Source: Trissonchulus latispiculum
Taxonomy: Eukaryota > Nematoda > Enoplea > Enoplida > Ironidae
DNA: 64,000 bases
Direction of reading: 5' to 3'
Assembly (NCBI GenBank): GCA_030248195.1
Contig: JASAND010028375.1
Location: 1 to 64,000 of the forward strand
Part shown: one piece after another, positions 4,209 through 61,643 of the stretch
Layout: every line of letters begins with the position of its first letter
How positions within the stretch are numbered: position 1 is the first letter of the stretch
The notes under the pieces: generated by a model
What the model was told of the DNA's origin: nothing
The model's input: the letters and a program-made list of their open reading frames with translations, nothing else
Databases searched by the model: none
Made by a program: the position numbers and the translations under genes

Positions 4209-4451
4209 TAGTTGCTAATTGTAGCTGGTGATGTGGAATTAAATCAGGGTCCGATCAATTTTCGAACTCTGAATAAGTTGGTCGTAAGGAAAGCCCTGGA
4301 ATTGTTGAAAGAAGAAGACGAACATTTTCAACTGCCAACCTCAAAAGATAGCATCATCACGATTTTCGAGACAGTTAATGAAGAAGTTGTCAGCAGCAAT
4401 CAATTCAGCAAAAAATCAACCGACCGAGAAACAAAATCCATCAAAATCTAA
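4209..4451 (+). mobile_element. Short ORF with a 2A-like motif, probable retroelement remnant
   Basis: Just after a TAG stop the frame reads LLIVAGDVELNQGP and stays open for about 80 codons, ending at 4451. 2A-like ribosome-skipping motifs (DxExNPGP, usually preceded by LLxxxG) are known near the N-termini of non-LTR retroelements in marine invertebrates. Here the NPG proline is glutamine, so activity is doubtful. No reverse transcriptase follows in frame. The link to the gypsy remnant about 1 kb downstream is unproven. The assignment rests on the motif alone. Confidence 0.4.
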
Positions 4452-35781: not shown

Positions 35782-38700
35782 TTATTTCATAAATCTGCAA
35801 ATTAAATGTTTCCATATCATAAAAATAAGTTTTGTAATAATCCATGTTATTATTTCTACGATACTGATGACAGATGCACCACTGAGTATATCTAGAAGTC
35901 CAGCGATGTCTGATAACAAAGCTGTCATCTGAAAATGTTAACATCAATTTTTCGATCATAACTTAAATTTAGCTAATCATTTAATTAACCTTAGTAAATA
36001 AATTAAGTTTTTAGCCAAGCTGCTGCTGCAGTGCAACAGCCTCAAGAAGGGTAACATACAAGCAAATTGAGAAATGCTTCCGTATTCGTTTTATGCGATT
36101 CAAGAGACATGATTGTTATTCTGATTGTTTGGATTCTCAATGACAGTATTTAAAACATACTTACCGGATAGGCATAAACTTCAACAAATGTCAAGCTGTA
36201 GGGTTGCTGCAGATATACACGAATTTCCGTTAATTCATCAGTTTCTAGTCTAAAACGGTTCAGACGGAATTCACTGAAATTCGTTGAAATTTCAGTGCAT
36301 TAATAGTTTATTAAAAACACTAATTGGATGTTTAAGCAATAACCGAAAGAGACCAGGAGCACATTATATTTACCATTAAATTATTTCTTGCAGAAACACG
36401 TCTACAACGAGAACACTGAACAGTGTGCTAATTTACCAGCTTTTTTAAATTAGGGTTTGCCTACTTAGGATAAACAAAACGGTGTAATGGACTTTGCGAA
36501 GAGCGAATAAATAATTTAAATAAATTTAAATTGTAGTTTTAGGAAATCGATATTTGAGACGGTTTATATTTAGCTGGTATGTCAAAAAAGAAAGTTGTTT
36601 GCCAGTTACGCATATCGAGCATATTATACCAAGATTTTAAGTAATGCATAAATGTATTTATCAAGTCTAAATAAATTTAAACAGAATTTTTATTAATATT
36701 TTATTACTATAAGTAATCCTCATTTCGCTGAGCCACATCATTGATGTGACCAATGTAGAGGCTATCTCATATGTATGCCAGAATTATGCATTTTGCAAGC
36801 CAGTTTGTCCATTCTAATGTAGTATTCATTCATTCAGTATGCCACTATGCATGCTCTCTTTTATCAGAGAAAAAACTGTGTTCTGTTCGCCACACTTACT
36901 CCCAGAAATCAGGCGTATTACTTCAAAGAAATTCGCTCGCCAAATATGCTAGCTGTACCTCTACTGGTTTGTGGGGCTTGCAAAGGGTAGAATTTTCGGG
37001 GGGGGAGGTGTGGTTTCAGTAGTTCAGATCATACTTTGCATTCACAGAAAGCATGCCTGGCGGTATACTTTTATTATTGCGCACACTTGATAAAAGGACT
37101 AGCAACTAGCTTAATCCTTGTTTAAGGTGCTGGTTTCACATTGTGCAGCAATCTTTAAATAATTGCAAATTTCTTAATTTTTTGGTATTGGAAAGTGATT
37201 TATATGCATTATTTCAAATCTTTGTGCATTCTACTCGCTATGCAACTGGCAAAATAACTTACTTTTCTAACACACTAGCTAAATATAGATCGTCGATCTT
37301 CAAACGTCGATTTCTCAAAACGGCAAGATTTGTTTTGTGCAGATAAGAAGGACATTGGAGAAGAGGTCTATGGTTCTGAACATCCACAGGATGCACGGCG
37401 ACACTAAATTTTTCATCTTTGCATTGAGTTTTCTAGGGACTGGAAACGTTTTAGCCAAAACCACGAAAAATGACCCTCCTCGAAAGCGCGAATTTTCATT
37501 CTGCCAAAGGTCTTTCGAATTTGTCCAGAAGTTTTTGAGAAATCAATGTTTATATAAAAAACTAATCGCAGTTTTACAAAATGAGTTTTCATCAAATCTC
37601 TAACGTAAGGCAGTAAACTCCAGCAGATAGGCGTTGGTAATTGACGCATTTAGACGGTGTATGCATTGTATGCATGTCCTTAATATATGGCAGTAAATTC
37701 GAATAAACTGATTTCCACAAAAATGGTAACTTCTAGACCTCGAAAATATTATTTGGCTATACTGACTTAACCGTTAAAAATAGTTCAATGGTTGCAAAAC
37801 CAAAAATGTTAACTTTATAGCTTTGTGCTCTCTTCTAACCATTACAACCAAATGGGTGTCTCTCGTGCCTACTGAGAGAACAAAGCTAAAAACCAGACCC
37901 GTGAGAGTGAAAAAATACTCGGAAGGAAACCAGCACTTTAAACTTTGTGAATATGAGTATTTTGTACTGGGTACCAAAAACACGAGTTTTATTAAGGAAT
38001 TATTATATACCTGAATCTACATCCATTCATATCCACTAATATTTTGAAGAAATATTTCAGTAGTAATTTACTGTTTAGCATTCGGGTAAAAGCATTTATC
38101 AGTGTAATTTCAAAAGGATGGTTTAACAAAAAGCCACTTTCAATAATCAATCGAATTTTGTTTCGGCCACCTCGATTAACTTATTTCTGTTTAAGTTTTC
38201 AATTCAGGTAAATTACTTACGCCATTGATTTGTTATGCTGTTCCTGAAATTGCAAAGAATTACCTCATTCCTTTTAGCAATTAAAAGTCAAGATTTTATA
38301 TAATTACATTTCAACAAGAGTACATAATGACAAGAGTATGACACTAAGCGTAGTCTAGCGTTATCAGAGCCAAAACTATGCTCTGTTCGCTAACGGCTGA
38401 TTTCTGCCCAAAAGTTGAACCCATAAGTACAACAAAATTCGCACGATATGTTTATGTCCTAAAGCTCGCAACAGACCCATATTGAACCAACAGAGTAGTT
38501 GTGTTATCGAGCTTCAACATACAAGAGTAGCGGTCACATTTGTTAGTCAAATTAAGTCATGGGCCCAATTTATGGGGGTTAGCTGTTAGCGAACAGTGCA
38601 TAGTTTTTGCTCTGATACCAGGGACTAGGCTTAGTGTGATACTCTTATCATTATGTACTCTTGATTTCAGTAATTACACACGCAATTGAAACATTTAAAC

Positions 38701-41700
38701 AGTTTACTCAAATTCAGTTGCTAAACTAAGCAGCTATTCGAAGCACTCCTTGTGAATATAAAAAGCAAAGTATCAATCAGTGAATTGATCTTAAGTGCTA
38801 CATTGGAAGTAAGTAAATTGAAAGTATCTCACACTGCTTCGCTTAACCTTCGGCGTCGTTGTTCTGGTTACTTCATATATTATTTCTCTGCAATGACAGA
38901 TTCAAATCTAGACTCTTAGAACATGTTAATCAGTTTTTATTTCATTTGTTTACACTCATTTATTATGCTGTTTTCGGCGTACAATTTCCATTCTGATCTT
39001 ACTGTTTTCAGTAGCATCAAATATAAAACAATTTTACCAACTGTAAGAAGATACAACCTACTTGCAGAATGTAACGCATGAACAGGAATGTCTCCAGGTC
39101 CCATTGACTGACAAATATGTTCCGACTTGATTGGATACGCAGTCTGCTAAAAAGAAAGATAAAATTACCAAGACATAACAGGTTGAAATAGAAGCTCCAA
39201 ACACAGTTGGTATTAAATCTGGAATTATTTCTTAATTGGCCCCTAATTAAGCTTCAAGCAGCAGGATGACAGTTCAATGCCCATAAATGTTCCAAGTAGG
39301 TGAAATATGAAACAGTCACGGCAGGCCAGTTCTGGCTTTAATCGCAGAATATCTGAGTGAAACTTGTTCCAATCCTAAAAGCTTTACCGACAATTTTTTA
39401 TCTACTGGTGTATTTAATACAGGTTGGAGTGAACTCATGCAACCCCCTGAAAATTGTGATGCTTAAGCTATTATTCTGAGTTTTTTACCGCGTAGGTGCA
39501 GGAAAACTTTGGTATAACAATCTTGAAGCTTTATGAATTTCGAAAACATTGTTGAACCGTCGTAAATGAAGACGTTATGTCATTCATATTAATGATTTCG
39601 AAATGTTCTAGGAAAATTCACTAATTTTGCCTAGCTGAAAATTATAGTAATGACGCACAATTTAACCTGATATCCGTTGACGTTGACCGCTGACGGTTAA
39701 ATGATAAATATTAAATGACTACTGCTTAATTCGGCTGCATTGGGTACCTTTTCATTTCAGGCGTGATACAGTACCGAAACACCTGCCCAGTCAAACATTT
39801 TCAGACTTGATACTCAATTCTGTTGTACGTGACGTGACTACGGATTTATGCAACAATTATTGCATATATTGAAGAATAGAGCACTAAAATTGTGCCTGTA
39901 GGCAAGTTTCGTTGAGTGAAGTCTGTCATTCCTTAGTTTTCTGATATTTCCTCCTGCGAGTTTCAGTACAATTTTACGATTATAAATGTATTATAACAAA
40001 CAGTTCAGCAGAACCTACTATAGTTGAAATTAGAATGACAATAGGGCAAATCAGCTGTGATGTCAGAAATATGCTGGCGCGGGTTATTTATTCTTGAATC
40101 CTTACATTGGCAAATTTTTGCTATAGTGACTTGATAGCATTCCAGGAGGCAATGCTGAAAGACACAATAACGATTAAAACGCAACGGCAGTAGGGACCAT
40201 CTGTCGTTATTACAATTTAAACTTGAAAGCTTTCCTTTCGCTATCTTGAAAACAAGACTGTTTGTTTATTAAAATATCTCCGTTGAGTTCAGAATTGGAA
40301 TGTTAAGACGGTGGAGTTAGCACAAAACTTAAAATATCGAAATTGAAAAAAGGTCCTAAAATATTGACTCAAGAGGCAAAACAGGTTTTTAATTAAATTT
40401 TTATACCCTTCTGTATATTATAAGTGAATTCTGATGGCTCGTGCAAGAGTGTCGTACTTACGTTTTTACTGTAGGCATCGCTTTCGTTTGATAATCTGCA
40501 TGGTTCATGAGGGCGTTGAAGACGAGTCTGAGTTGTCTATTAATAATCAAACAATAAATATATAGTATTTACTGTTAATGTGTTAATCGGTTGAAATTAA
40601 CACACTATTTACAATTATGTCACCGACCCCTTTGCTTCCCTAAGTTGCCTCAAAATATTATCTGGTTTATAGTAAACGAAGTCTGAAGACAAGTGTTAAT
40701 TACTAATTGCCAAATTATAGTTATCAAAGCTAATCACTATACCTGAATTACTCCGAAACTGGAGGTAAAGTCGGAAGATATCAAATGGCCCTCCATAAAG
40801 GGAAGCGGTTTACTGCTGAAATGATGCAATATTATTTTTGAACCAGATGGTCTGTACTGGTCACCAAACAGCATTGTAGTTGATGAAAAGTTGGCCAGTA
40901 TCTTTAGTCCTAGGAATGATACGATGAAATACTTTAAAGCTTCAATTCATCCATTGCAACACCGTGACATTATTGAAATTTCTTGAAAATCTCTAATCTT
41001 TTATCTTTCTGGGTTGTTTCCTGGACTTTCTACAAATCATGTTTACACATGCAGGGGAAACGTCATTCATTTTCTCTTTCGTATAATATTTTCCCCCGTG
41101 ATATTCACCCCCATAGGATATAATATTGCCCCCGTGATATTTTCGCCTCTTTCAGCTTTAATATTTTCACCCGGATAAATGAAATCTAGCCAAACAATGC
41201 AGCAGATTTGACATGGTCAAAACAGCAACAACTTTGAAATGTTGGTACTTTGGTTTACATTCATTACAGAGAATTGCTTAAGGGAGAATTTGCGTTATCG
41301 AGAATTTGCTTAACTGAGAAAATGTCTAAAAACGCATGCGATGAGTAGAAAAATACAGGAATGTTGTAAAGGCTGCGGAATATTATAAAACTAATGTCCT
41401 ACCAGCATACAGAATGACTTTCTCACAATGCTATGTTGACTGAAGCAATATTTCTAAGAGACAATTCGTGATAGTGCGTGACAAAATTTCGTTTCTATAT
41501 AAAAATTAGAAAAAACATAAAAACAGTAATAAGTTAAATTTTAAGCTTAGTTTAAATTATATATAGTCGGTACAGGCAAGAAACAAGGGCAGAGTAAGGA
41601 AAGATCGGTTAAGAAGCTAAACTGGTTTGAAATTTTTGATTAATTTGTTAGTAATTGTCTTGTAAATAAGTTAATTTTGGAACTGTTAATAACTGTAAAA

Positions 41701-44700: not shown

Positions 44701-47700
44701 GTTCTACGTTTTACGTTTCTTGGATGGAAGGATTCAAATATTCCATCTTGAAAAAATCAGAAGTTTCAGACGAAAGAAACAGCATTTATACTAGAAGCAA
44801 CAGTGGTTTACAATTTGCAGTGCGGAATTTTATGAATATTCAGCGGTGACAAGTGTAGAAATAAAGAAACAGCGATGTAAAAATGACAAAAGAGCCTGTT
44901 AAAAACCCGAAATTTTGCACCTCGCAATAACTGTAAAAATTAGGGTTCCAAATTATAAGAAAATCAAAAGTCTGAAAAAACCATTTTTACAGTTATTAAC
45001 AGTTGCAAGCTTAACGTATTAACAAAACAATTAGTAACAAATTAATCGAAAATCACCAATTTTTTACAAGTTTCCCACAAATTTTTTACACTTTTTAAAG
45101 TGTTAAAACAGTGTAAAAATTATTCACTTTTTACCTGTGAATTAACATTACTTTAATAATTATATAATAACAGAAACCAACATGTAAAATTTATTTCAGC
45201 ATTTTACTTGCAGATTACCAACTTTTCCAAAGCGTTGCTGTTTGGACCCTGTCAAATTTCCTGCATTGTATGGCTAGGTTTTATTTAGAAGGGGAAAATT
45301 GTAGCTGATTGGGGGAATATAACGGGGGGGGGAGTATTATACCCTATAGGGAAAATATTACGGGGGAATATTATACGACACCGGTTCTACAGTAGCTCTT
45401 CAATAAAATTAGACGCAAAAACGCATTACCATTAATTTCACCAGGAGGGTGTGTAGATTTTGGTAAGGTAACCGTAACGCAATCTCCCTGGTATGGATCA
45501 TAAAAATATTGGAAGTTGTTTCTAAAAGTCAGTTTAAATACCTTATTGCTGTTTAGAACTGAAAATGCAACATTTCTTGTGGTACCAGTAAACAAAATCT
45601 TTGTCAGCTAAATTAATAGGGATGGAAAACAGTGGAGACTTTGGACATGACATTAAATATGCGCACGTTACTAGTCGTGTATCTGTTATTTGTTTTGCAT
45701 TTTACTATTTACTTTATTACTTTTTGCAACTGGAATCCGCAAAAAGGCATTTTTTGATGATGTCACTGAAAGAGTTTGCCTTTGGCCGTAGTGTTCTGTC
45801 GTCCGTGTTATGCACATTAGACAGGTATGCCTGCACTCCATTTAGTAAATTCAGGGCTTGCTGCTGTTGGTCACCATCTTTAAAGTTAGCTTGAGCTTGC
45901 TGAAATTATTTAGTTCAGATAACAACAGTTTACAATATCAAAATATATGCATGGAAAGAATTTAGTATTACAAGTAATGCTGAGGATACGTACGAGTTTG
46001 TTCCCCATTAAAAATTGTGCTTGGACGCTGTTGTCCCTTAACCTTAAGTATTCTTTAAGAAACCTAAGAATAACTTCCACTACATTATTCAACTAAAATC
46101 TTCGGCTAAGCCTTAAGCTTACTAGGTTTCTGTTATTCAAAGAGTCAATTCGCTTGACCAAAGAAAGGCCGATCATTTATCTAGCCATTACAAACATATA
46201 GATTAAGATATTTAAGCTGTTTAAAATTAATTCCTATTTTTAGGATGGCATGTAAAATAACTTAAGCATCCACAGCAAAACCTGAAAAGATGCGCTCCAC
46301 TGTTTAGAGAAAAGCTGAATTTCTAAACTTAGTGTTATCAATGTCAATGCTTTTAAACCAAGATAAAGTTTATCAAAGGGCTATAGGTTTTTTGAATATT
46401 AGCCCCGGTCTTAAAGCTAATTTCTAAAAATTAGGACAGAAGCATACACGAGTTACACAACGTCAACAGTTCTACGGGTTGCAAGTACACCACTTACCAG
46501 GTTTCTGAACACAGCCACTGTGCTATCAATCGGAGTTTCATGCATTGTCGATAATGCCTCGTAAACAATGTCGCTTGATTCAGACATTACGTCTAGGTTA
46601 AGCCAAACGTGCCTTCCACCTCCTCTAATGTTAGCTGTTTCATCTAAATTACTCACCTAGACACGACAAATGTATATATTATGGTAAATATGGTAAGCTG
46701 ATAAAGCATAGTAGGACTGCATCAAAAGTAAGAAGAAATGTTTCCACACTGAACACATTTTAGATTCTGATTCGGTCCGGAGGTGGTGAGATTTGCTAAG
46801 CATCCAGATTCCTTATCAAATAATATATAAAGCTTTTCCTTGATGTCAATGTTTACTACACATGAATTGAGCTTTCACTTTCATTGCGATTTTAACTTGA
46901 ATTCAGAAATGAACTTTTGTTTTACAATATAGTCTGTTGAAATAGCACATAAAACTATAAGTATCTACGAACATTGAGAGTCCAGACTAGAAATTTTTCA
47001 AAAACTTTCTAAAAATTTCATAAATAGTGCCAGAATTTTCAGGTTATACACTCACTACGGTTGCTTTGATTTTCGATTAGAATCGAATCAAAATTGTTTT
47101 GATGCGACTTTTGATTTTTGATTAATCGAACTGAATCAAATCATTTAATTTTTCACAGCAACAAATCGAACTGAATCAAATCTAACTGAATTTTCAGAAG
47201 CCAAAATCGAACTGAATCAAGTCAAAACGTTTGTCCATGAATCATAATTTTGATTTTGATGCGATTTTGATTCACATTTTGATGCAGCAGAATATATGCT
47301 AAAAGCTTTCACTTAGTCTCATTGCACAATGATAAATACTTTTCCATGTATGCATCTTTTTCAGTACAGTTGATCCCATTATATACAGTGTACATTTAAG
47401 GTTTGTTTGTGGTCTTCACTATGGCAGTGCTCACTGTAGATGTACCAGCAAAATCTTAATAAGGGAATTTTTAGTTTGGAATACAGTATTAGCAGGCATT
47501 TGCTAGAATAGGTTTATTGCTTTAATGTAGCCAGCCTTTCGCGTTTCGCGAGACTGTTAGTATTCTTACATTAGCTCTAACTTTGATCAAGATTAGCATG
47601 CAAAGATTTCATTAAAGTCGAGAAGTCTAAGTTATATTAAGAATCTCTACTTCAGCAATGGGCATTTAATATTATGAAAAGTGAATATTTTATGTTCTCA

Positions 47701-50700
47701 AAATGTCCTGCAATTTTTATGTTCTGACTACAACAATCTCTGGTGATTAGGTTGGTTTAAATTTAGGTAAAATTTTCAGAAACGCAAATTTTAATAATCA
47801 AAAGTCGCATCAAAATTTAGTTTTCATAAAAACTGCATCAAAATCAAAAGTCTTTCAAATTGAAAAAATCGAACTGAATCAAATCAATTCATTTTTCGGG
47901 CCTAGAAAATCGAACTGAATCAAATCTGATGATTTTCATGGCGAAAATCGAACTGAACCAAATCAAAACTTCTGAGGTCGCATCAATACAACCGTTCACT
48001 CAACTCCAATATTTCGGTCGAAATGACTAACATGTTCAAAGTATCGCAAAGTTTTGCAAGTTATTACAATTTGATAAAACAATAACATTTAATGCGCGGC
48101 AATAAATTGTATACTAAGTCTTAGGCATACCTTTGTCTTGTATACAGACTGAGACAGTATCATCTTGTATTTGGCAAACGATCGTTGCGGGCATATGACA
48201 AGAGTGCAATTTTACTCCATCACTATCGTAAAACAGATCTGTGGTAAGGCATTGAGTTTCTTCAATGCTTTTGCGCCAAAATGCACTGCCAAACTGTAGA
48301 TACCTAAACTTCAGGTTCAGTTTGATAATGTTTTAGTTATACGAAACGCTACAGCTTAATTGGGTATTGAGCAGTTTTATTAACAATTAACTAGGGAGGT
48401 GGGTCAAATTTTTTTTAACAAAGCCGAATAGTTATTTCGTCTCAAACTGAAATACCGACAAAATCTAATATTATTGTGTCTTGCACCACTTCTCATGGAG
48501 GCGAAAGCAAATGAAATATATAAGCTAAAAATCTCAAGCTGAAAGCTGAGACTGCTGCCTTCAAGCACCGATTTTTATTAAGCCGGCTTCACACTGGAGT
48601 CCTAAGACATTTGTTTTAAAGTAAATGAATTTCCCAGAATGATTCACAATTAAGTATTTAGTTCTTAGTCGAATGGATTAAGTCATGGGAGATGAATTTA
48701 TTAATATCTAGTCTCAAGATCTTAACAAGGTTAAAACCTTTAGACTAGCGATTTAATCAATTAAGATTAGTTTTAGGCTTTTGTAAATGTAAATCCTTTA
48801 GTTTGAATCAACAGACTTAACATTTGAGTTGTTATAAATTCAAGCACACCTGAGTGTACAATTAGGTGGCCAAAGCGCATTCCACTTTCCGTCCTGAAAT
48901 CTTGCCCCCAATAGCACTTCTGCCTCCTGTCCTTTGCGTTCAATCATTTGTCGACCGTAAATTGAGTTGTTTTTTCTAAACGATTTCATGAAATTAGACA
49001 AATCAGAAACCTACACCAAGTTATACTATGTTATATTATGGTTAAAAATTATTAAAAATTATTAAAATTATTAATTGTTATTAAAACGGACCAACCACTT
49101 GTTCAGCGCTTTCACTATTGACATTTTCCGAGTTAAATGTTTAGTCGTAAGCAAATTTGCAGTTGGTTACAGCTTCAGGAACGACGAAAACACATCATTT
49201 GATCCGCGTCCACATAAACGTGCCTTTAACTGATGTACTTTTTGTCTAGCGTAAATTGAGGTTTAGATTTTTGTTTAACCAACTTGACCTTGTAACGGCG
49301 CAAATTTGTCAACTACCATATATTATGGTAAAAAGAAATTTTCATCTTTACTATGTGACACAGAAAAAATACATATGAGCCCCTTTCTGCTAGAACCGAC
49401 CAAAGCCACCTCTGTATGGCCGACTTCTGTGTAGCACTCGTTAAATTTTATTTGTCTCTAAATTTTGTCGAGCACATGTGGGGATATTAGACACACCGAC
49501 GTCCTGAGTTATAAACAGTTTTCTCTCTGTGGATTCTGTGAAGTGGCTTGTGGATTCTGCTCGCGTTTGTTTCAAATACTGTCTCTGTTTTAGGATGCTG
49601 GTTTTGTAGTTTTTTGCCCATAATTCTAGCTGCAGTTTCGAAGGAAGGGTAAATAGTGCATCAAAATATTTATCCAGGATAGCAATAACTTGGTGCAAGT
49701 ACCAGCTTTCCCTGTGGCATGGTACATTTGTAAACTTCAGCACGCACTGGTGCTGGTTCAGTATTTTTGTTTGCTCGTGGGCTTCTCCCTGAAAAATGGA
49801 AAAAATTTGCTAGAATTGGCTAATTCTGTGTACCGAAAATTGCAGTGGTTAGATAAGTTATGTGCCAAGTGCAGTAGGGGTAAAATTTCCTATTTTCTAG
49901 TTTTATTGCAAAATAGGACTTTTCTGCTGGTTATGTCTGTCCTGATACCTCCCAAAAATTGTGTGTGGGGGGTGTGGGTGTGTGTTATGCCACCTCTAGG
50001 TTCAACGTCTGAGAAATGTTTAAGTCAAATCGAGCACTTAAAATCATGAAAAAATGAAAGTACTCGGATTTGGCTTAAACTTTCCGAGATGTTGACACTA
50101 ACGGTGGTATATTAACACACACAAAGTTTTAGGGCGGTATTTGTTGTTTTTCGAGAGATATTGCAGGTCAAATTCCGAGCGATGGGTCTACGACAAGCCA
50201 GGATAGGACATATTTTGCGATAAAGTCAAAAATAGGACATTGTTAGGCTAACTGCTGTCTGCACATAACTAATCTAACCGCAGTAATCAGCAACCACTTC
50301 AGGTTAAATTTACACATATCCCATATCATAGAGAAAGCTGGCTTTTGCACCAAGTTAGCTCTATTCTAGACTAATATTTTGAAGCAATGTTTGCCCTTCA
50401 TCATGTGTTGCAGAAAAACTACTAAATCAACATTTTAAGACAGAGATCGCGTTTGAAACATAAACACGGCCAGAATCCCTAAACCTTGAAAAAATTCTTC
50501 AAACTCAGTGTATGTCCATTACCCTTGTGTGCTCTGCAAAAACTAGAGGCAAAAGTTATTTAACGGGTGCGACACATCTGTTGGAAGGCGCCAAACCAGC
50601 CCCAATTGAGTCAACTTACAGAACCTATAGCTCGAGCTAGGAGCCATTTCCAGCGCTTGGAATTGAACCATTACGATTCTTCTGACTTCTATTTCTGCAT

Positions 50701-53700
50701 ATGTGAAAATGGAGAAATCAAACAAGGTCGAATTTTTCGGACGCATGGTGGTCGATTCTTACAAACAGCGACTCAAGTAAATGATTATTTTATATATTAT
50801 AAAATATATTTACAAAAAATTTTCCAGAAAATCCTTCCATTGTTCAGCATCTTTAAATGTTGGCAAACTACTGTTCGGATGCAGGAAATTGCATGCCTTG
50901 TCAGCAGCAGACATACTAAAATATATCTAGCATTATGAACTTTGGTAAACAACTTACAAAACCATCGTGTGAGAAGTGACGCGTTTGTTGCATCCCGGGG
51001 CCTGTTTCATAAAACTTACATTTTCAAGAAAAGCGATGCGTTTGTTGCAAGCAGGGGCATATTCATAAACCTTATATTTAGTACAATGTAGCGTTTTAGA
51101 ACGGCCGGGTGGAACCGGCCGGCGGCCGGCCGCCGGCCGCCGCAAAATGTCAGTGGCCGGCCGGCGGCCAACGGCCGGCCGGCCGGCCGTTGGCCGTTCG
51201 TGGCCGGCGGCCAACGGCCGGCCGGCCGCCGGCTGGCCGGTGGCTAGCAGCACATATTTTTGAGTGTTTGAGCCAGAAAATTACTAAATATTTAAATTAT
51301 GCATTACAAAGACAATGAAAATAATTTTTACCTGATCTACTTGGATAAAGTTCCCCTTCAGTCTTCAATTTGTTTTGTAAATATTCGTAGCTCTGTTCAA
51401 ATTGCAGTGTTAGCTACAAATATTTGTGATAGGCCGGCGGCCAGCCGCCGGCCAACGGCCAGCCGGCGGCTGAACGGCCGAACGGCCAACGGCGGGCCGC
51501 CGGCCCGAGGGCCAGACGCACTGCCGGGCGGGCGGCCGGCCTAAAAGCCGCCGGCCGGCCGGCGGCCGGCCGCCGGCTGCCCGGCCGTTCTAAAACACTA
51601 GTACAATGTAGCTACATTTCTACATTGACAGCAGTTCTGTTTCGTAAAATATTTTAGACACTAATGTAACTACTATGTAACTGGATGCATTGCAATGAGG
51701 TAAAAATGAAGTAATTGCTGTATTGAAAATATAGGACCTCTGCCATGTAATAAAATTGAGTCGGTTTTATAAAGTTATTTTCAGGACAATGTAATCTATC
51801 ATGTAGCTACATTTACTGCTGTGTTAAGACTGCTGTGAAAAGGTTAACTTTTTGCCATTTTCAACAGAAAAATGAAGGAGTACAGAAGTTAAAGTTATGG
51901 AAAGTGTTGAGCAACGTTGAGAAGCTGCCTGCAATACTGATTATTGAAATTTTCAATGCATACATTGCTGTAAACTTAGAAAACAATTAACATCTGACTA
52001 AACAAAGGAATAAAAACTTAAAAATGTTTCCTAATTTTATTAATTAATTAATTAATTTATGTTAATACTTTAATTTTTCCAAGCGGGTGAACTTCTGTAG
52101 TATTGTAACTACATTGTGCACTTCATTATTGATATGTCAGGACTAAAAGGCTAATAATACATCGCCTCTTTACTAACCATAGAATTTGTTAACTAAACAA
52201 TACTTGATACTATGTAGTTCATTACTGGATTAAATCCTCTATTAAGATTTATATTTACTCAATAGCTAGGCGTTGACACCTCAATAATTACAATGTAGAA
52301 TACGGCTTTCCAACATGAAACTTCAAAGGAGTCGAATGTAATGTAACATTACATTGTAAAATCTACATTTGTTTTATGAAGCAGAGAAATGTACAAATTT
52401 AGAAGGTTACATTGTAATGTACTAAGTCTAATGTACCCAATGCAGTTTTATGAAATAGGCCCCAGGAGTGTAGGCCTTGACTGTGAAAACATCTGAAAAC
52501 ACTTGATATTCTAGTGATTGACCAATGGCATGTATCAATTTCTCTCGATAAAGGATAAAATCTAGCACAAAAAATCCGTTTGCGACGGCATTAAAGCTAT
52601 GCACTTGTACTCTAATCGAATATTTACTTTTCGGAAGCTTATTAGGTTTAAATGTCTTCGACGCCGGCAATACCTATGCTTAGCACGCAAAGCTAGCAGT
52701 TGATTTCTTTGAAATCAGAATCATTACCACTACAGAAATATAGATATAAAAATTTGGGTCACTGAAGTCACTGAAAACGGCAGACTAGTACATCTTTTAC
52801 AGTTATTCAAAGATTAATATCTTCACAAAAACTAAACACTTGCTATTCTAAAATAAAAGAACGAAACTAACAGCCACTTTCGGATGGAGTTAGCTTAGAG
52901 AAATCTTTCCACTGTGTGGTAATTTGTTAGTTTTTATACTTTATTATTCATTACTTTTGTATTTATATTATATGGTTATTGCATCTACTTATATTTGCTT
53001 AATATCTCAACTAGGAACTTTTACCACCACTGAATGTTTTTAGTGATTATAGGTTTTTATATTCATAGGTGATTCTCACAAAACTACCGGTTGCCATTTT
53101 GAACTTTTGCAAACGAAACAAAAATAACTTTCATAACCTTAAAAAATCGAAAATGACAAAACCTACAAAACAAAAAAGTTGCCAGCATTACCGATAGCTT
53201 GCATGAGAGTTAATTGTTCTGTAGCAGGCATTGAGGCCACGAATCCAGTCCGCAGGGCAATCCAAGGTCGATATAGGTTCTTCTGAAACATGGTTTGCAA
53301 TCCATTCCATTAGACTCTGGTTCTCTTCTTGTACTTGGCCTTCGCCTTTAATAAAGTAGAGCTGTATTACAACTGCTCTAAGGTTCAGTTTAGTTTAGTA
53401 TACGGCACAACTCAAGTAGAAATTTTATGATACATTCATAAATTACGTTTTCCGTCCTACACTTACTTTTTAAGCTCACGTTTTTAAATGTCGCCAAGTC
53501 TGTTTTTGAGGATTATCTACATATCTGGAAATGGCTAGTCACTGAATGGTTATAATTATTCGTTCGAAAGATCTTGATAAGTTGATCATTTGTGCGTTCC
53601 ATAAGTATTTTTATACTTCTTGCTTACAGCCAATTGTTTATTTTGATTTTAACACAGTCTTTTCATATAGGATATTATTATCGTTTTTTTCAATTGCGTA

Positions 53701-56700
53701 AACCTTAAGCCTAAACCTAGGGTGTTAATTATAGGCCACTAAAAATATAGTTCGTGCCAAAATGCAACAAATACTTCATCAGCAATTGTCGAGAAATCCA
53801 AGCTGGACTGTTGCTGTTTGACAGCTGGACTCTGCGCAAGATCACCCTTTTAGCAACTCCGATTGTTGGTGTTAATAGTGGTGGCCTAACAAATTTAATA
53901 CAAATATTTGTCTGACGAAAACTTCACATTCGTTTCCAAGAAAAATTGCGTTCTAAACTTGGTGAGCAAATCCTAGAAAGCCAAAATTAGTTTCAGTACA
54001 TCTATTGAAAGGAGAAAATGTTGAGCTACATTTGTATTTACATTTTCTAGCTTTAAGGGGGGGCTACTTGTGTAAAAAGTTCGGCCCTCAGTGATTTCGC
54101 GTAAATTGTGCCCATTGATACTCCCTAGGGCCGTAAGCAAATCTTTGAAATTTTAGATGATTTCGTCCAGGAATAAAACAAGTAGGCCGCTAAACGGGGC
54201 ATTATCTCGTAGTTGAACTCAAATTAGCATGTTGAAAAATCAGAACTCGTATACCATTTAATTAACCGTAGACAAAACTTCTTCTGAATTCTTAACTGCG
54301 CAGGCATGATCTTTGGATGCCATGCTCCAGCTTCACGGTGACTTCAGACGGCACAGCGCGTTTACCGGGGTGGGGGAGGGCACTTAACAATGGTATGCTT
54401 TGCTCATTCTGCATGTTTGTACTCTCTACGCCCCTTCAGAACAAGACTAGAGCGATTCAATTTGTTTTGTGCCTACCACCCTCTTCTCTAGTCGTCATCA
54501 AAGCTCATTCGACATTTTGTTCGTAGGAAAAAGTAAACGAATCTGCCCCCGGCAAATTACAGTCTTCCGCTGCTCACTCATTTGGATATAGATTACAAAT
54601 CAGTCATTTCCAAAATTCATATTTTTCAAGTTGTTTATATGCCATCCCTTTTCAAGCTAAAGTTTGTTTCATGGTTTAACCAATTTAAGATTCCTCAAAC
54701 CTTCTTATTTTGTGACATGCGGAAAACCTGACAATTTACATAGCTTTCAAAAACTTCCTGAATCTGTGGTCATCTGTGGTGAATTGGATCTTTTGGTGGC
54801 ATAACGCATATGCCGCTTTCAGTTAAAGCCAGTTTCGCATTCGCAGTTAATCAACTCAAAGCTCAGCGTATCAAATAATCCTTCTGAAGAAATTTAAGTA
54901 ATTATGACCAGCTGTTGAACTCATTGAGGTTATTGATGCGGCCGGCTGATGTTTTGACCACACTGACCACGAAACCACCTGAACTCCTGCGGTAAACATT
55001 TCTTAGTTAATTTGAGGTCATTAGCTTGTCCTCAACAAAATTTGCTTTCTTCAAAATTCTGTATAATGGATCCTATGAACTGCCATTCAGTATCGCAAAA
55101 TTAAGAGACTTAAATAGTCGACAGAAGGTACAGGGTTTTGTACGTTAGGCAAAAATAAGTTGGGGACGCTCCCCCACTAGTAGGGAAAGGTCCAAAAAAG
55201 TGGGGGGACAGGAACAAAATGGGTTAAAATACGGCAAAATAACTTGTTTTATACATGCACTGCTATAGCTAAAGCTAATAAGTGTTCAACAATAAAGTTT
55301 TAGCACCAAAACAGACGATTTTTAACTAGAAAGTTCCGGCGAAGCCACTACATTTTTGAAGTACACACATGGTAACCACTTTAATGCTGCTATATATTAA
55401 TGCTAATAATTCTGCTATATATTATTCATGTTGCTGAGGTTTGGACTTGTAAATGGCTATGTCAATGTAGATGGAGGAATGTGTGCACCACTGTTCACCA
55501 CAGAATAACGCATAATAATGGTCTAAAATTCGAAGAAACTAATTTGCATATTCTAGCAACTCCATTTTCCTACAATTATCTTGTCAACCAAGAGTGGCAG
55601 AGTTCAAACGAATTATTCTATAGAAAACAAAAATAAATGAGCAAAGGGGGGGGGGTTGCTAGTGTTGTGCATTGGTCGGTGCGGCCAATGGCTGGCCAAT
55701 GGCCGGCCAATCATTGGCCGTTGGCCGAGAAAATCTCGGCCAGTTGGCTTGGCCAACGGCCAATGGCCAACGGCCAACTGGCTGGCCGTTGGACGTTGGC
55801 TGGCCAATGGCCGAGTGCTGGCCAAGCTCAAATTTACTGATCTTGTGCGTTACCTGTGTTGAAAAATTTAATTATATTTGCTAATTGCATGCAAATTTTA
55901 AGTGTGCTAACAACGCAGTTTCTAAATTTGTCTGGCGGTGAACGACTCATCACTTTAATGCGGTCCTCCAGCAAAATTAAAACAGAGTTATCTAAACCTA
56001 AATCTAAACGGAGCTAAATGTTTGGAAAAACTATTTTACAAATATTGTAATTTGTATATACTATTGAAATAAAGTTTAATTAAGTTGACGCCTAATTAAG
56101 CACGGTAGACGAATAAAAATAGTAATTTCCAGCTGGCCAACGTTGATAGATAGCAAAAGAACGGCCAATAGCTTACGGCCAAGAAACAGCCAACGGCCAA
56201 CGAGCGGCCAACGGCCAACCAGTTGGCCGTTGGCCATTGGCCATTGGCCGGCCAACGGCCATTGGTCGGCCATCGGCCATCGGCCAACGGCCAGCCAACT
56301 GGCCAGCCAATTGGCCGGCCAACTTCAAACTCCGGCCAAGCCAAGCCAAGCCAACCTTGGAAATTTTCGGCCAATCCCAACACAAGGGGTTGCCAAAAAT
56401 TTAAATAAGTTTACTTTCAGGAACCTCATTCAATCTTCGATATGAGCAGAATGAAAACTTTGATTTCAAAAACATCCCGTGGCAAACTTTTTAATATGCC
56501 TCCTGCTTGCAGAAACAGCCACCTAGTGAGCTACGTGTTAAGGATAAAGCAAATTTCATGACTTAAGACGATTCAGTTCAAAAAGAGACTCAAACGATTG
56601 CAAGTATCCCGCCTCCAGGCGAGATAAAAAGTTACTGCCATTCACAATTCCCAATTCCTAATGGCAAATGGTCTAAAACCGGAAACTTACATTTTCTGCT

Positions 56701-59700
56701 TCAGACAACGATTACTTTCCAAATCAATACCGTTCGAAACGGTCTATAGCTCGTTTTGTAGCTACATACAATATTTTACATCAATACATCACAATACATC
56801 AAAATTTTATTTCTAACTTTTACAGTAATCGTTTCCGTGAGGCAATCCCAAAAATTTGTGAAAACATGGCATTTTTCGAAAATTTTCGAACTCTACAAAT
56901 ATACACAGTACCTATATCAGTCGATAGCTCCTTTAATTTTAAAAACTTTTCTTCCTGGCGCAAACGTTCATTTTGCAGCTGTTTACAGTTATCGGTCAAA
57001 AACCGTATCTCCGTGATGTTTCAATTTCTGAGCTTTGGGAGTGCTTTCGCGAAAAGGACTACTAGAAAAGTTAGAAACTGGTTTTTGAAAAACGCTCTTC
57101 GACAAATTTTAGATATTGTATTTAGCTACAAAGTGAGTTATTGAACGTTTCCAACAGTTTTGATTTGAATAAGTTATTGTTGTCAGAAGCGAAACATCTA
57201 AAGTTCCGGTTTTAGGCCATTTTCAATAGGAATTGGAAATGTTGAACGGCTGTAACTGTTCTATTTCTTGACGAAATGATCTCAAATTTCAATGGATTCC
57301 GTACGGCTCTAGAACGCATCAATGGCAGAATTTGAGCGAAATCCGCGAGGGCCGAATTTTTGATCCAAGCGGCCCTCCCTTAAGAAATGAATGAGTACTA
57401 ATTGTTCAGGTAATGCCCCTAAGAGAAATCACCACCTTAGCAACATCTATCTGTACGTCCTAAAATCAAAGCTAAAATTTTTGTGTAAGAATAACTATTT
57501 TCGAATACAATTTTGAGTTGTTTCAAGCAAAGTAATAATTCTTGTTTCCCAGCCACTACTGTTTTGTTATACTTAAGTGATAAAGATTAGGGCCAACTGC
57601 TAGTTGACAACATAGCTTTAAGCTGAAGATAAATAAAATATAATTATATATTCATAACTTGCAAATTAATTGTTCCACAGTCGGTTTTTCCAATCTAACA
57701 GTTAAAACGGTTCAATCTCGTTTTTGTATGTGTAGTCTTTCAGCTAGTGCTGGGATCGGTTCCAAAAGAAACCTGTAGAAACGGAACGGGAACCGGAACC
57801 GGTGGCTTTTGGAACCGGACCGACTCTAGTGTTAATTTTGGTTGTTTGAAGCTACAATCAAGGTTTATTTTGTAGAATTTTAAAATTTTATTAGAATGTA
57901 GCATTTGGAATTTATATGTAGACTGAAATTTTGATGACGGCTAAGTTTTTGTGTGAATGGTAGCTTATTTGATATCTGTTTTATGATATGTCTTTAATAA
58001 CAGTTTTTAGTCAATGTTTTAAGTCTTCTGGAAAGGGTATAACAAAAAAGAATAACTAACGTGTATTCCAAGTTAGGTGTTTATTTCAGCTACATAAATT
58101 AAAACAATATCTTTTTACAATAAAAACTTAATAGATTGATTTCATTTAATGCACACACAGTTCTGTTGTTTTAACTATTAAGTTAACTTTGTACATGCCT
58201 ATGTTCTGTAGAAGTGTTCGAAATGTATAATTCTCGTTGAACAATTTGCCCTATTTTTTGCTATTCTTTTCGATCTCGAAGAAAATCATCGGCCCCGAGA
58301 TAGCTGCATTTTCGAAGATTATTCTTTGGAATAGTTGAGCATATACTGTTGAATAGATGAGCAAATTTTATTGGACCGGTTGAAATTGGTCGAGGAAAGT
58401 TGTAGCTAGAACCGGAACCGGAACCGATAATCAAGAACCGGAACAGGTTTCAAAAATTGGAACCGGTCCCAGCACTACTTTCAGTTACTGGCTTATTGGT
58501 GGTCCATCTGAAAACCTTACCAGAGCAAATAGCAAAACATCCCTCAGTTCGTACAGAGCCACTCATGGTATAGCACCAAGGACCCGATGCACTGAAGTCA
58601 GGATTTCTGCAGTGGTTGTGACTCCCTAGGCGTTTATTGTTATGCCAATGGGGTTCCGTGGAATTCCAGTGTTGACACGTCTTATTTGATATTGTTCTGT
58701 TGGCGGTGCCAAAATAGACATCTCCAAGACATCTGGATATCCAGCCTTCCCAGCAGTTTAACTTTTTATTGTAGCAGGTATTCGCTAAGTTTTCTCGTGG
58801 CTTGTCTGTAAAAAACTTTTAACTCGCAACAACGTCGTACATACTTCTAGACTTATAGATGCGAACATTATTTGTACTAAAAAGGTGTTGCAATTGCATC
58901 CATCTTTTTATAAACGCACAGACAACCTTTCACTGAACTATCGGCCTGCTTTAATCTTCTATTATATGTGTCAATCTGATAATTCATGTTTGTATTGTTA
59001 TGATTTAATCTGCAGATTCAATCTCCAATAATAACCTTCAAAGTTTGATAGCTAAGCACCTCATCTGAAAAAGCAGGATACGTATATGTTGGCCAAAATA
59101 ACTTCATGACTGCACATATTAAAAATTTGGATGGTATTCGATGTTTTCAAGATCGCTGGCCATAGGGCACCAGTTAATGGGCCTGTACCTGTATCTATCC
59201 TATCAACGGCTATTAGTTATCACTGTTGATTTTGACCAGAATTTGATATCAGAGTCGGGTCGTCATTTTAAAGCGTTTTAGTAAGTTACTATTGACACTT
59301 TCAGTAAGTTTCTACCTAGTGCTTAACTAAGACTTGACACAAATTGACGCAAAAGCCATGGAAAATTTCGATTTCTAGCATTTAACTGGATTTTCAGGTA
59401 AGTTTGCCTTCCAAATCTTATGGGGAGTTTTCTAAAACAGAAAGATTTTAGCCAAAATTTGTCAAAATCTACAGTCCCCAGCTTGATTCATTATTGTATT
59501 CCTACCAGAAAATGGCTTGGGATACTGATTGCACCGTTATTTTCTACGCAAGTGCTTAAAATAATTTTTAGGAAACTAAGAAAGCAACAGCTAAACATTG
59601 CAGTTAGACATTTTAACATGGAATCAGCATCAAGAACTTTAAAGTGAGGTCATCAAATCTTTTAAATTTCTAACTCACCATGATTTAGATTTCAAACTTA

Positions 59701-61643
59701 CCATGGTCTGCATTTGCAAGAATATCATCTAGATCCATCGCTAGCTGTTTCTGAAAACATACTGTTTTCCGAGACTGTTGCATTGGTTCTCGCTAATAAC
59801 TGTGCTCTTGATGTCACAAGAGATTAACAAAGTCGATGATAATAGGTTTATGAAATTGGCCGCTTTGAATGAACCAGGTTATCAGTCATTGTAACAATCT
59901 TGCGAATTGGTAAAAATTTGTAATAACAACGTGTAATAATTTTTGTATCATTAACAGCTCGTAAAATTACTGTATTTATCAGGATTTCATCAGCCTTCAG
60001 TAGCATTAACAGGAACTGAGATTACAGTTGACAGATGACAGATTTGCGTAAGACTACAATTAACTCCTAATCAAACTAAAAATCAATAATTTTTTGTACA
60101 CTGAAACCTAGATCAGCCCGTTCTTGTTTCGTACCATTTTCTTTCCAGCTGCCGAAAGGAAGTAAGCCATCTTATAAAACGGATTCATATTACATACAGT
60201 CACTGACGGAAATATGCTATTATGGTTGATCTAAAGAAAAAGTTGCTCGTAAAAGCATGGAGAATTTATTGACGGTTAAATTATTTATATGTCCACGTGC
60301 ATGACTATCATTAACTGTGAACTACAGTGGCACAAAATTTCGCGTTAGCTTAAATTCAATAGTTAGAGTAAAATAGCTTAACTTATCGAACAATTGGTTT
60401 AAGTTTTCGAATCATACGATTTTTACAAATTAGTTTCGCTGTCAAATTCACTTTTGTCTGTCCTTACTTACGCCGGATTTATGGATATTTTGCTTCCTTG
60501 CGCCGGACTTGTGGATATTTTGCTCATTTGTCCAGACAGAATGTGATAAATGAAAGAATTAATCTATCAGAAAGTTTCATAAAATCGAAGCAGTATTAAT
60601 GATGGATTCTTAGCGGAACAGCGAATAGATGATATGACAATATGAATTCAAGTTATGTATTTAAACTTAAACTGGTGAAAATGCAGGTTTAAATATTGTA
60701 AAATGTTTAGTTCAGTACCTGCTTTTTTACAGTCACCGGATCTTTGGCAAACTCCTGAACAAAATTATGTAGACACCAAACGGTTAGCGTAGTGATAATA
60801 AGGGATAAGCAGAATCCAGCTAATTGTGTCTTGCCGCGTCGACCGTATGTAAACGTTATAAGATCAAGCTAAACTAGAAGTACTGCCACTGTATTAAACT
60901 CTGTAATCTAATAAAGGATAAAGCAAAAATATTATCAATCCGTTTACGCATTTATGCGTAGAAAGCGGAGGGCAAGGAAAGGTATGTTTCTGCTTACTTC
61001 AGTGCTGTGGACAAAATGGATTGGGATGCGTTTCAAAAGATTCTCCAAAGTCGGAGAAAGAGGCATGGGAGCGTATTTAGGAGCTTCTTCGGAGCTGATG
61101 ATACACGGGTTCAAATGAATTGTATTCTGCAGAGAATTGTTAGGAACAGTGATGGACCAGACATCTAAAGGAAGCAATGTTGGAGGGAAGGCGGCGGCCG
61201 CCAAAAATAAAAAAATCCGTATTCTGTGTAGCCGTTCTCATGGTGAGCATCAGGTCAAGGGAGGTGTATGAAACCCCCATAAAACCCCACTAAGGGTACG
61301 TATGTACCGGATGCAAGTTTTTTGTTTCTTACTGATATTTATATAAATAAATGGATAAACCTTCGACTTCATAATTGCTTGAAACTGTGAACCTGAAAAC
61401 TCTGTTTCAAAAGTATTTGCTATAAAAAATTGGTAGCTCAAATAGATTTTCCAACGCTCTATCTTTTTCAGGTTTGTTGGGATTTGCAGTGCTTGCTTGC
61501 TGTGCTTAATTATATAGTTAGTTCCAACCAAGGGACATCCACTTTCTTACATTTCAGTTGCTTAAAAGTCAGGGACTTACCGAATTTAATGAATTTAAAA
61601 TACTGGATTTTGCAACAAGGGATTTTGCTGGAGCAGTCTCCAT
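35782..61643 (-). CDS. DEG/ENaC-family ion channel with extracellular kringle and C-type lectin-like domains
   Basis: Twenty exons join in continuous phase to 755 residues: 61581-61643, 60719-60868, 60135-60230, 59702-59750, 58521-58805, 53192-53345, 50814-50915, 48850-48975, 48131-48303, 46498-46643, 45721-45899, 45430-45548, 40743-40909, 40462-40536, 40106-40154, 39062-39146, 38221-38243, 36165-36244, 35782-35928 and a Met start at 61643 (21 codons in exon 1). Short cytoplasmic N-terminus with TYGRRG where the family has His-Gly; TM1 about 36-56; FPSVTVCNMNPF at 78-89; kringle 130-213; CTLD 244-386; then the usual extracellular part: CLFADSSC (499-506), YQGDC, TRLQRPHEPC (607-616), CxxxC, CSCVTFC; TM2 with LLSDIAG and the GAS selectivity-filter motif (724-726). 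DEG/ENaC subunits are trimeric, mostly Na+-selective channels. The extra modules may bind a ligand or matrix. The exon at 38221 is only 23 nt. Count note: nineteen intervals are listed because I find no need for a further exon; treat the exon number as 19. Confidence 0.87.
36838..36965. mobile_element. Relic of the CAAGAGTACATAAT family
   Basis: Shares CTCTNTTATCAGAG, TGTTCGCCA and TTCAAAGAAATTCGC with the arms of the 30413 and 38315 copies, but lacks both ends. It lies in the last large intron region of the channel gene. Confidence 0.5.
37390..37600. repeat. Dispersed repeat shared with 20500-20650
   Basis: Reverse complement carries GGCAGAATGAAA and GGTCATTTTTC in the same order and spacing as the 20.5-kb copy. 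ORFs on both strands are probably repeat translation. Confidence 0.55.
38315..38663. mobile_element. Foldback, CAAGAGTACATAAT family
   Basis: CAAGAGTACATAATGACAAG at the left and its near inverse at the right. ATTTCAA (38308-38314) and ATTTCAG (38664-38670) form a 7-bp target duplication with one change. Arms are shared with the 30413 copy. It is in an intron of the channel gene, about 70 bp from the 23-nt microexon. Confidence 0.85.
42441..42605. mobile_element. hAT-like MITE with GGCC arrays (165 bp)
   Basis: TAGTGTTGCGCATCGGCC at the left, inverse of TAGTATTGTTCACCGGCCC at the right. ACTTCTAC at 42433-42440 and 42606-42613 is a perfect 8-bp target duplication. The interior is GGCCGG-rich, unlike the AT-rich host. 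Confidence 0.9.
42755..44880. mobile_element. Foldback element A, split by element B
   Basis: The right arm (about 44630-44880) is the inverse of a left arm that is now in two parts, 42755-42843 and 44180-44345. Shared text includes AAAATTCCGCACTGCAAATT and CTGATTTTTTCAAGATG. The two left parts join when element B is removed. Confidence 0.8.
42846..44177. mobile_element. Foldback element B, TAAAGTCTGACC family, copy 2 (1332 bp)
   Basis: AAGTCTGACCAAAAAATGTA at the left, its exact inverse at the right, TA on both sides. The two halves are nearly perfect inverses of about 640 bp. The intact opposite arm of element A shows the empty site GCTTCTAGTATAAATG, which proves insertion at TA. Confidence 0.9.
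47055..47996. mobile_element. hAT-like element with GAATCAAA arrays
   Basis: CTACGGTTGCTTTGATTTTC at the left and the inverse of AACGGTTGTATTGATGCGAC at the right; CACTCA on both sides (47049-47054, 47997-48002). Both flanks are made of GAACTGAATCAAATC units, and the centre is unique AT-rich DNA. It is in the channel intron between the CTLD and the next exon. Confidence 0.6.
50999..52461. mobile_element. Element with GGCCTRTTTCATAAAACT ends
   Basis: Inverted ends GGCCTGTTTCATAAAACTTA and GGCCTATTTCATAAAACTGC. CCCGG and CCAGG flank it (50994-50998, 52462-52466), a 5-bp duplication with one change. The interior has many ACAATGTAG / CTACATTGT motifs. A hAT-like element is nested at 51089-51600. 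A partial direct repeat of the left junction lies at about 51038-51082. Confidence 0.75.
51089..51600. mobile_element. hAT-like MITE with CCGGCCGG arrays, nested
   Basis: TAGCGTTTTAGAACGGCC at the left, inverse of TAGTGTTTTAGAACGGCCGG at the right; GTACAATG at 51081-51088 and 51601-51608 is a perfect 8-bp duplication. Two GC-only arrays of GGCCGGCC surround an AT-rich centre. Confidence 0.9.
52468..52670 (-). other. Open frame of unknown status inside a channel intron
   Basis: Open from a CATAG acceptor-like site, with VQVHSFNAVANGFFVLDF and SDVFTVKAYTPG, then cut by the transposon at 50999-52461; past the transposon the frame would go on as CNKRVTSHTMV to a GTAAGT donor at about 50954. The channel exons on either side already join in phase without it. 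It may be a cassette exon, a dead exon or chance. Confidence 0.25.
53500..54060. mobile_element. Old relic of the AGGTGGTGATTCC family
   Basis: Without clear ends, but TTCGAAAGATCTTGATAAG and later ATTGAAAGGAGAAAATGTTG match the body of copies 1 and 3 in order. Another right end, GAAATCACCACCT, stands at about 57424-57436. Confidence 0.45.
55660..56385. mobile_element. hAT-like element with GGCCAATGGCC arrays
   Basis: TAGTGTTGTGCATTGGTCGG at the left, inverse of TTGTGTTGGGATTGGCCG at the right; GGGGTTGC at 55652-55659 and 56386-56393 is a perfect 8-bp duplication. Two arrays of GGCCAAC/GGCCAAT surround an AT-rich centre. All ORFs here are array translation. Confidence 0.88.
57745..58477. mobile_element. 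hAT-like element with GGAACC arrays
   Basis: TAGTGCTGGGATCGGTTCC at the left and inverse of TAGTGCTGGGACCGGTTCC at the right; CTTTCAGC (57737-57744) and CTTTCAGT (58478-58485) match at 7 of 8. GGAACCGGAACC runs stand next to both ends. It ends only about 45 bp from the kringle exon. Confidence 0.88.
58521..58805 (-). other. Kringle-domain exon of the DEG/ENaC gene
   Basis: One exon encodes the whole kringle, bounded by phase-1 introns on both sides, the usual form of a shuffled extracellular module. Signature: TCQHWNSTEPHWH, then HCRNPDFSASGPWCYT, ending EGCFAICS. The first Asp of the lysine-binding pair is kept (NPD) but the second position is Ser, so lysine binding may be weak. It has eight Cys against the usual six. 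Confidence 0.93.

Follow-up and report, generated by a model that had tools for sequence, protein, structure and literature searches.

A DEG/ENaC channel gene of the nematode Trissonchulus latispiculum with a predicted kringle and C-type-lectin-like domain in its extracellular loop

The window analyzed here, a 64,000-nucleotide stretch of the Trissonchulus latispiculum genome, carries a gene that, judged from its sequence and that of related loci, probably encodes a channel subunit of the DEG/ENaC type that bears a kringle and a C-type-lectin-like domain (CTLD) in its extracellular loop, as two symmetric phase-1 cassettes at the alpha1/alpha2 corner, with gating or tethering acting through this module. 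The architecture is real and conserved; it belongs to a known superfamily, in which it is apparently undescribed, and to a family of such genes, and the proposed mechanism is plausible.

Results

An 18-exon gene model

The open frames and splice sites visible on the minus strand were assembled into a spliced model of 18 exons from 61643 to 35782, with the ATG at 61643-61641, a stop codon ending at 35782 and a predicted protein of 777 amino acids plus stop (Table 1). The exons named in the original prediction (TM1 and FPSVTVCN, a kringle, four CTLD exons, the rest of the channel ectodomain and TM2) are all present, in order and on one strand; all model introns are GT-AG and the exon phases are consistent. 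As the splice sites of the window model were picked to fit, phase agreement alone is weak evidence, and independent copies were therefore sought. Exon 15 of the model extends beyond the first donor-like site and takes in ADLPYC, which is part of the usual DEG/ENaC cysteine pattern.

Table 1. Exons of the predicted channel gene, with positions in the window
Exon and content	Positions	Strand	Evidence
Exon 1, start codon and N-terminal cytosolic segment	61581..61643	-	C12317 allele-like copy, 61/63 nt identical
Exon 2, TM1	60719..60868	-	Hydropathy; copies in C12317 and C20490
Exon 3, FPSVTVCN, start of palm and helix alpha1	60135..60230	-	Copies in C12317 and C20490
Exon 4, remainder of helix alpha1, phase 0 in/1 out	59702..59750	-	Copy in C12317
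Exon 5, kringle domain, symmetric phase 1-1	58521..58805	-	PF00051 4.7e-13; PDB plasminogen 4.5e-46
Exon 6, CTLD part 1 (DCPADWIRGLNACY), phase 1-2	53192..53345	-	Model; C20490 counterpart
Exon 7, CTLD part 2, phase 2-2	50814..50915	-	Model; C20490 counterpart
Exon 8, CTLD part 3, phase 2-2	48850..48975	-	Model; C20490 counterpart
Exon 9, CTLD part 4, phase 2-1	48131..48303	-	Model; C20490 counterpart
Exon 10, finger helix alpha2 region, phase 1 in	46498..46643	-	Counterparts in C20490 and C13881
Exon 11, finger alpha3 and first channel cysteines past insert	45721..45899	-	C20490 counterpart
Exon 12, beta-ball/palm (FYDPYQGDC)	45430..45521	-	C20490 counterpart
Exon 13, palm	40743..40909	-	Counterparts in C20490 and C13881
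Exon 14, palm to thumb	40462..40536	-	C20490 counterpart
Exon 15, thumb, cysteine-rich (ADLPYC)	40019..40154	-	C20490 counterpart
Exon 16, thumb, CxC	39062..39146	-	C20490 counterpart
Exon 17, palm before TM2	36165..36273	-	C20490 counterpart
Exon 18, TM2 with GAS filter, stop	35782..35928	-	C20490 counterpart; hydropathy

The intron between exons 12 and 13 contains nested inverted repeats at 42844-44179, with arms of 332 nt (97% complementary) and 321 nt (92% complementary), and GGCC-rich repeats that are open on both strands lie at 51100-51600 and 55640-56440, with related sequence in contig C20490 near 8-9 kb. Outside the gene, a minus-strand open frame at 11322-11564 matches the Major Facilitator family (6.1e-9), with other hydrophobic frames nearby on the same strand; plus-strand frames at 5489-7007 resemble, by eye, the reverse transcriptase and integrase of a gypsy-type retroelement. 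At 4212-4448 on the plus strand, GDVELNQGP near the start of a frame looks by eye like a degenerate 2A peptide, and this frame has no Pfam match.

Channel, kringle and CTLD

Searching the joined protein against Pfam bore out the channel and the kringle of the original prediction, while its CTLD stayed below the cut-offs. The channel family (ASC, PF00858) was matched at 5.9e-36, with 124.9 bits against a cut-off of 23.6, in one stretch (residues 40-756) that reaches from TM1 to TM2 across the insert; the protein read from C20490 scored higher, at 139.9 bits, but in three separate stretches. Hydropathy finds only two hydrophobic segments in each of these proteins. DEG/ENaC channels share a post-TM1 motif, FPxxTxCN, and a GxS filter in TM2, which the window protein matches with FPSVTVCN and SGAS. 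The family also has an N-terminal His-Gly gating motif, not taken here as invariant, which is without a match: Tyr-Gly stands at its position in the window protein and Phe-Gly in C20490. A two-sequence channel profile matched ENaC gamma, FaNaC and ASIC structures in the PDB, with ENaC gamma the best (2.4e-20), and its coverage includes the ENaC/ASIC ectodomains. An amiloride-sensitive Na+ current and trimeric assembly are further traits of the DEG/ENaC family; by analogy with these relatives, we infer that the protein would assemble as a trimeric cation channel.

The kringle match (PF00051) spans residues 145-209 and reaches 49.7 bits against a cut-off of 34.3, and the corresponding kringles of C20490 and C13881 score 35.4 and 53.7 bits. 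Lysine-binding kringles carry a DxD anionic pair after NP (NPDxD). This pattern, searched as NPD.D, is found in none of 40 distinct kringles of this genome, the window's included; the window kringle, like the other kringles of this set, is without the second Asp of the plasminogen lysine site. The likeness to the kringles of ROR1/2, HGF and plasminogen is one of kringle sequence; those proteins are secreted or are receptor kinases, unlike the window channel. When the 40 distinct kringles (from 49 read) were placed in a tree, the window, C20490, C13881 and C21714 sequences clustered, with weak support (0.64). The kringle repertoire of the genome is rich, with at least 150 matches scored out of 239 candidates, several of them in tandem on one contig, a count in which alleles are not separated.

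The second module is taken as a divergent CTLD on the strength of profile comparisons and of its cysteines. No match to the Pfam lectin family (PF00059) was found in the window CTLD, and two relatives' CTLDs matched no Pfam family. The viral, C-type-lectin-like family UL45 (PF05473) was hit at 0.0005 with the module alone and at 0.013 with the whole protein, both below the cut-off (20.2 bits against 27), and the first CTLD exon of C8024 hit it at 0.18. In a single-sequence search of the PDB, snake-venom CTLDs came first (best 0.021) and CTLDs made up 6 of the 12 matches at E<=10. With a two-sequence CTLD profile, this rose to 23 of 24 at E<=10, LY75 being matched at 6e-7, and with a three-sequence profile all 32 matches at E<=1 were CTLD-type as judged by name. 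The best of these stands at 8.6e-8 summed over domains and the best short chain at 1.5e-5, with most alignments spanning only the first half of the CTLD. Long-form CTLDs have the cysteine pattern C0, C0', C1-C4, and the spacing of the module's cysteines (29, 40, 59, 145, 162 and 170) suits it; all except C162 are aligned in all three sequences.

Calcium-dependent C-type lectins carry EPN or QPD together with WND. Scanning two CTLDs, those of the window and C20490, showed no EPN/QPD plus WND in the window CTLD and a single WND in C20490, within QWNDFL and off the sugar site. As the sugar motifs (EPN/QPD, WND) and the lysine motif (NPDxD) are missing at their sites, a textbook glycan or lysine ligand is unlikely, and a protein is the more likely ligand of the CTLD than a sugar.

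Independent copies of the gene

Strong evidence against a chance arrangement comes from three other contigs, C12317, C20490 and C13881. Contig C12317 carries exons 1-5 (start, TM1, FPSVTVCN, alpha1 and kringle) in the same order and with the same splice sites. Over 643 coding nucleotides it differs from the window by no indels, exons being 96.8-100% identical and introns 82.6-98.8% with gaps; the intron between exons 4 and 5 (98.8%) is as conserved as the exons there. C12317 is probably the other haplotype. Thirteen of 214 codons differ, 10 of them changing the amino acid (NG86 dN 0.020, dS 0.030), a pattern indicative of little constraint between the allele-like copies, or of rapid change. 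That the locus is a pseudogene or decaying, as the dN/dS of about 0.66 from 14 nucleotide differences might suggest, is nonetheless very improbable, given a frame that stays open through all 18 exons, intact splice sites for exons 1-5 in both copies, and extracellular cysteines that are all retained against a paralogue at 40% identity.

This paralogue, on C20490, has 17 of the 18 exons, in order and on one strand; a counterpart of exon 1 was not found in it, and exon 4 is weakly conserved (5/16 residues). The exon search there demanded the same phases and GT-AG introns, so the phases were in part bound to agree. The two proteins are identical at 37% of kringle positions, 40% of CTLD positions, 39% of those in exons 12-17 (palm/thumb) and 53% of those in TM2. 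C20490 retains every one of the 30 cysteines in the extracellular part of the window protein, and the three unshared cysteines lie in or beside membrane segments or in the cytosolic tail. At codon positions 1, 2 and 3, nucleotide identity is 0.47, 0.58 and 0.27 in the kringle, 0.54, 0.64 and 0.38 in the CTLD, and 0.50, 0.64 and 0.34 in the remainder of the channel, where chance gives about 0.26. Positions 1 and 2 thus lie far above position 3, which argues that the kringle and the CTLD have both been kept as protein, like the channel.

On one strand and in order, C13881 reads FPAVTVCN, kringle, CTLD parts 1, 3 and 4, an exon-13 equivalent and TM2, with an exon-10 match also in its place. C11271 looks like an allele of C13881 for FPAVTVCN, the kringle and CTLD part 1.

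These copies bear on whether two or three separate genes are present, with a same-strand kringle/CTLD gene nested in a DEG/ENaC intron. Reading through the exon 9 donor reaches a stop within six codons, which makes a terminal CTLD exon conceivable, and a kringle gene next to a distinct ENaC gene is seen on C2047. However, the read-through end differs in C20490, the interleaved order recurs in C20490 and C13881 at about 40% identity, and on six contigs the CTLD lies between FPSVTVCN-type and later channel matches on one strand. Moreover, when 940 open reading frames of the window were compared with C20490, 13 of 17 model exons were matched and collinear, the other matches were mostly repeats or short and weak, and no conserved signal-peptide exon was seen among them. 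We therefore consider separate genes very unlikely. The single channel gene with both modules in its loop, as originally predicted, is instead supported by the shared order in C20490 and C13881 and by the presence of only two hydrophobic segments.

A wider CTLD-DEG/ENaC family

Matches were tallied across the genome (734 Mb, 21,732 contigs) at a threshold of 10, at which many single matches are weak and some loci will be alleles of one gene. The cross-tabulated rows were 86 of 86, 79 of 93 (without 14 self rows of C20490 and C19246), 146 of 150 (without four window rows) and 149 of 150 (without the window row); contig tallies omit the window contig and C12317, and all counts are lower bounds. 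ENaC-type matches occur on at least 109 contigs, CTLD matches on at least 117 and kringle matches on at least 100. At least 37 contigs have both ENaC and CTLD matches, where about 0.6 would be expected if all contigs were equal, and somewhat more since long contigs were matched more often. In these, the strands agree in 37 of 37 and the order FPSVTVCN - (kringle) - CTLD - palm - TM2 is seen by eye in 35, C8430 and C21359 deviating. Three or more different segments stand in one run in 16 of the 37, and the CTLD is flanked by channel matches on both sides in six (C739, C955, C3959, C8024, C13881 and C20490); the remaining contigs have the CTLD with an upstream or downstream channel part only. 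The kringle list serves as an internal control, as 3 of its 100 contigs meet ENaC matches without gene-like order. Because 37 contigs are shared, with matching strands and 35 in gene order, the sequences support placing the window gene in a CTLD-DEG/ENaC family of which a subset also carries the kringle, the CTLD being the wider module. Dozens of DEG/ENaC matches with intact long single frames also occur in the genome, beside this intron-rich family.

ENaC and kringle matches share at least seven contigs, in gene order in C20490, C13881, C11271 and C21714 and not in C2047, C21229 and C19893; in all, at least four genes (window, C20490, C13881 and C21714) have the kringle in gene order. The simplest history would be that the CTLD came first and the kringle was added once, in a subgroup.

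A large kringle-ENaC family was also considered and is unsupported: the C2047 kringle belongs to a gene distinct from the intronless ENaC there, the kringle is on the opposite strand in C21229 and C19893, and around the C2016 kringle the 10 kb examined show no clear channel exon. In C2047 (2401-7400), the kringle shares one frame with FYRYWNPGSLDHFYT-type tandem repeats, and the adjoining intronless ENaC has an acidic run.

Class 1-1 symmetric modules are the pattern expected from module shuffling. Here the kringle exon and the four-exon CTLD cassette are each 1-1, exon 4 ends and exon 10 starts in phase 1, and each skipped form would therefore stay in frame, which predicts optional isoforms. 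Alternative splicing could in this way yield channel-only and module-bearing subunits, with the module as an optional cassette. CTLD genes without a detected kringle fit this idea: in C9216, FPSITVCN is followed by a possible alpha1 exon and four CTLD exons, and no kringle match falls between them (the remainder of the channel was not found within the 9 kb examined), and C8024 has FPSVTVC, CTLD pieces and an exon-13 equivalent, in exon-sized pieces, with no kringle among the matches listed. The cassettes are, however, conserved about as much as the channel and do not look disposable, and we regard an optional module as a possibility on the unlikely side.

Discussion

By analogy with known channels, the insert would sit between finger helices alpha1 and alpha2, as it comes after the alpha1 helix that succeeds FPSVTVCN and before the segment running up to the next cysteines of the channel. 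In ENaC, the GRIP domain lies between alpha1 and alpha2 and its proteolytic removal relieves inhibition, according to the accessible part of PMC6197857. The alpha, beta and gamma subunits of ENaC would share with the window channel both the DEG/ENaC fold and a gating-control segment at this place, but GRIP is a beta-strand segment, described in that part as ENaC-unique and acted on by proteases, where the window protein has a kringle and a CTLD. In the FMRFamide-gated FaNaC, which the channel profile matches at 8.3e-17 (PDB 8on7), the accessible part of PMC11026163 places the peptide pocket at alpha1-alpha3, where ligand binding drives gating and gating begins with finger closure. The FaNaC ligand is a small peptide, and no added globular domain, such as the window protein has, is described there.

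A folded module at the alpha1/alpha2 corner would be well placed to couple binding to gating. In the mechanism we propose, the module would lie on the outer rim of the trimer, at the site of ENaC GRIP and the FaNaC peptide; a ligand protein, or a partner in the matrix or on a cell surface, would engage the CTLD, with the kringle as a second contact or spacer; and the engaged CTLD would shift the finger against the thumb, so that the channel opens, closes or is tethered. A quite different role, which we think rather improbable, would make the module a structural element, or an anchor that ties the channel to the matrix for mechanosensing, with no soluble ligand. Such a role would accord with sugar- and lysine-binding motifs being absent where they would be expected, and with the finger corner, which the accessible part of PMC11026163 calls important across the superfamily and names as a proposed matrix-tethering site for mechanosensitive DEG/ENaCs; a large CTLD-ENaC family would, however, suit varied recognition better than one fixed anchor.

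Our reading of the module as a gating or tethering element could be extended to the family as a whole. We suggest, tentatively and with considerable doubt, that the CTLD-DEG/ENaC loci (at least 30 or so, the kringle subset included) are ionotropic recognition receptors, in which a protein or microbial surface ligand at a lectin-fold module in the GRIP position would directly open or close a sodium channel.

Polycystin-1, a membrane protein associated with channels, likewise has an ectodomain CTLD, and differs from the window channel in an unrelated membrane part and architecture. The nearest precedent found is C. elegans EGAS-1 to -4, described in the accessible part of PMC10424705 as channels with EGF and ASC domains that gave no currents in oocytes; their added domain is EGF, not kringle or CTLD. 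No kringle- or CTLD-bearing DEG/ENaC was found in the literature searched, of which coverage was partial and in which some queries miss the slash spelling, and the words kringle and lectin are absent from the main text of PMC10148893, PMC10507113, PMC9822975 and PMC9949801. A homologue search of protein databases returned one Hypothenemus hampei kringle protein and no fusion; other such searches returned nothing at E up to 10, a weak negative because even ordinary DEG/ENaCs were missed.

The known gating inputs of DEG/ENaC channels are protons, peptides, proteases and force. The extra binding-type domains in the predicted ectodomain suggest that these channels sense ligands that the usual ones do not. 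If this is true, a recognition domain of globular fold at the corner that controls gating would be a new input route for DEG/ENaC channels, and the family would clearly show exon shuffling giving rise to a set of ion-channel receptors.
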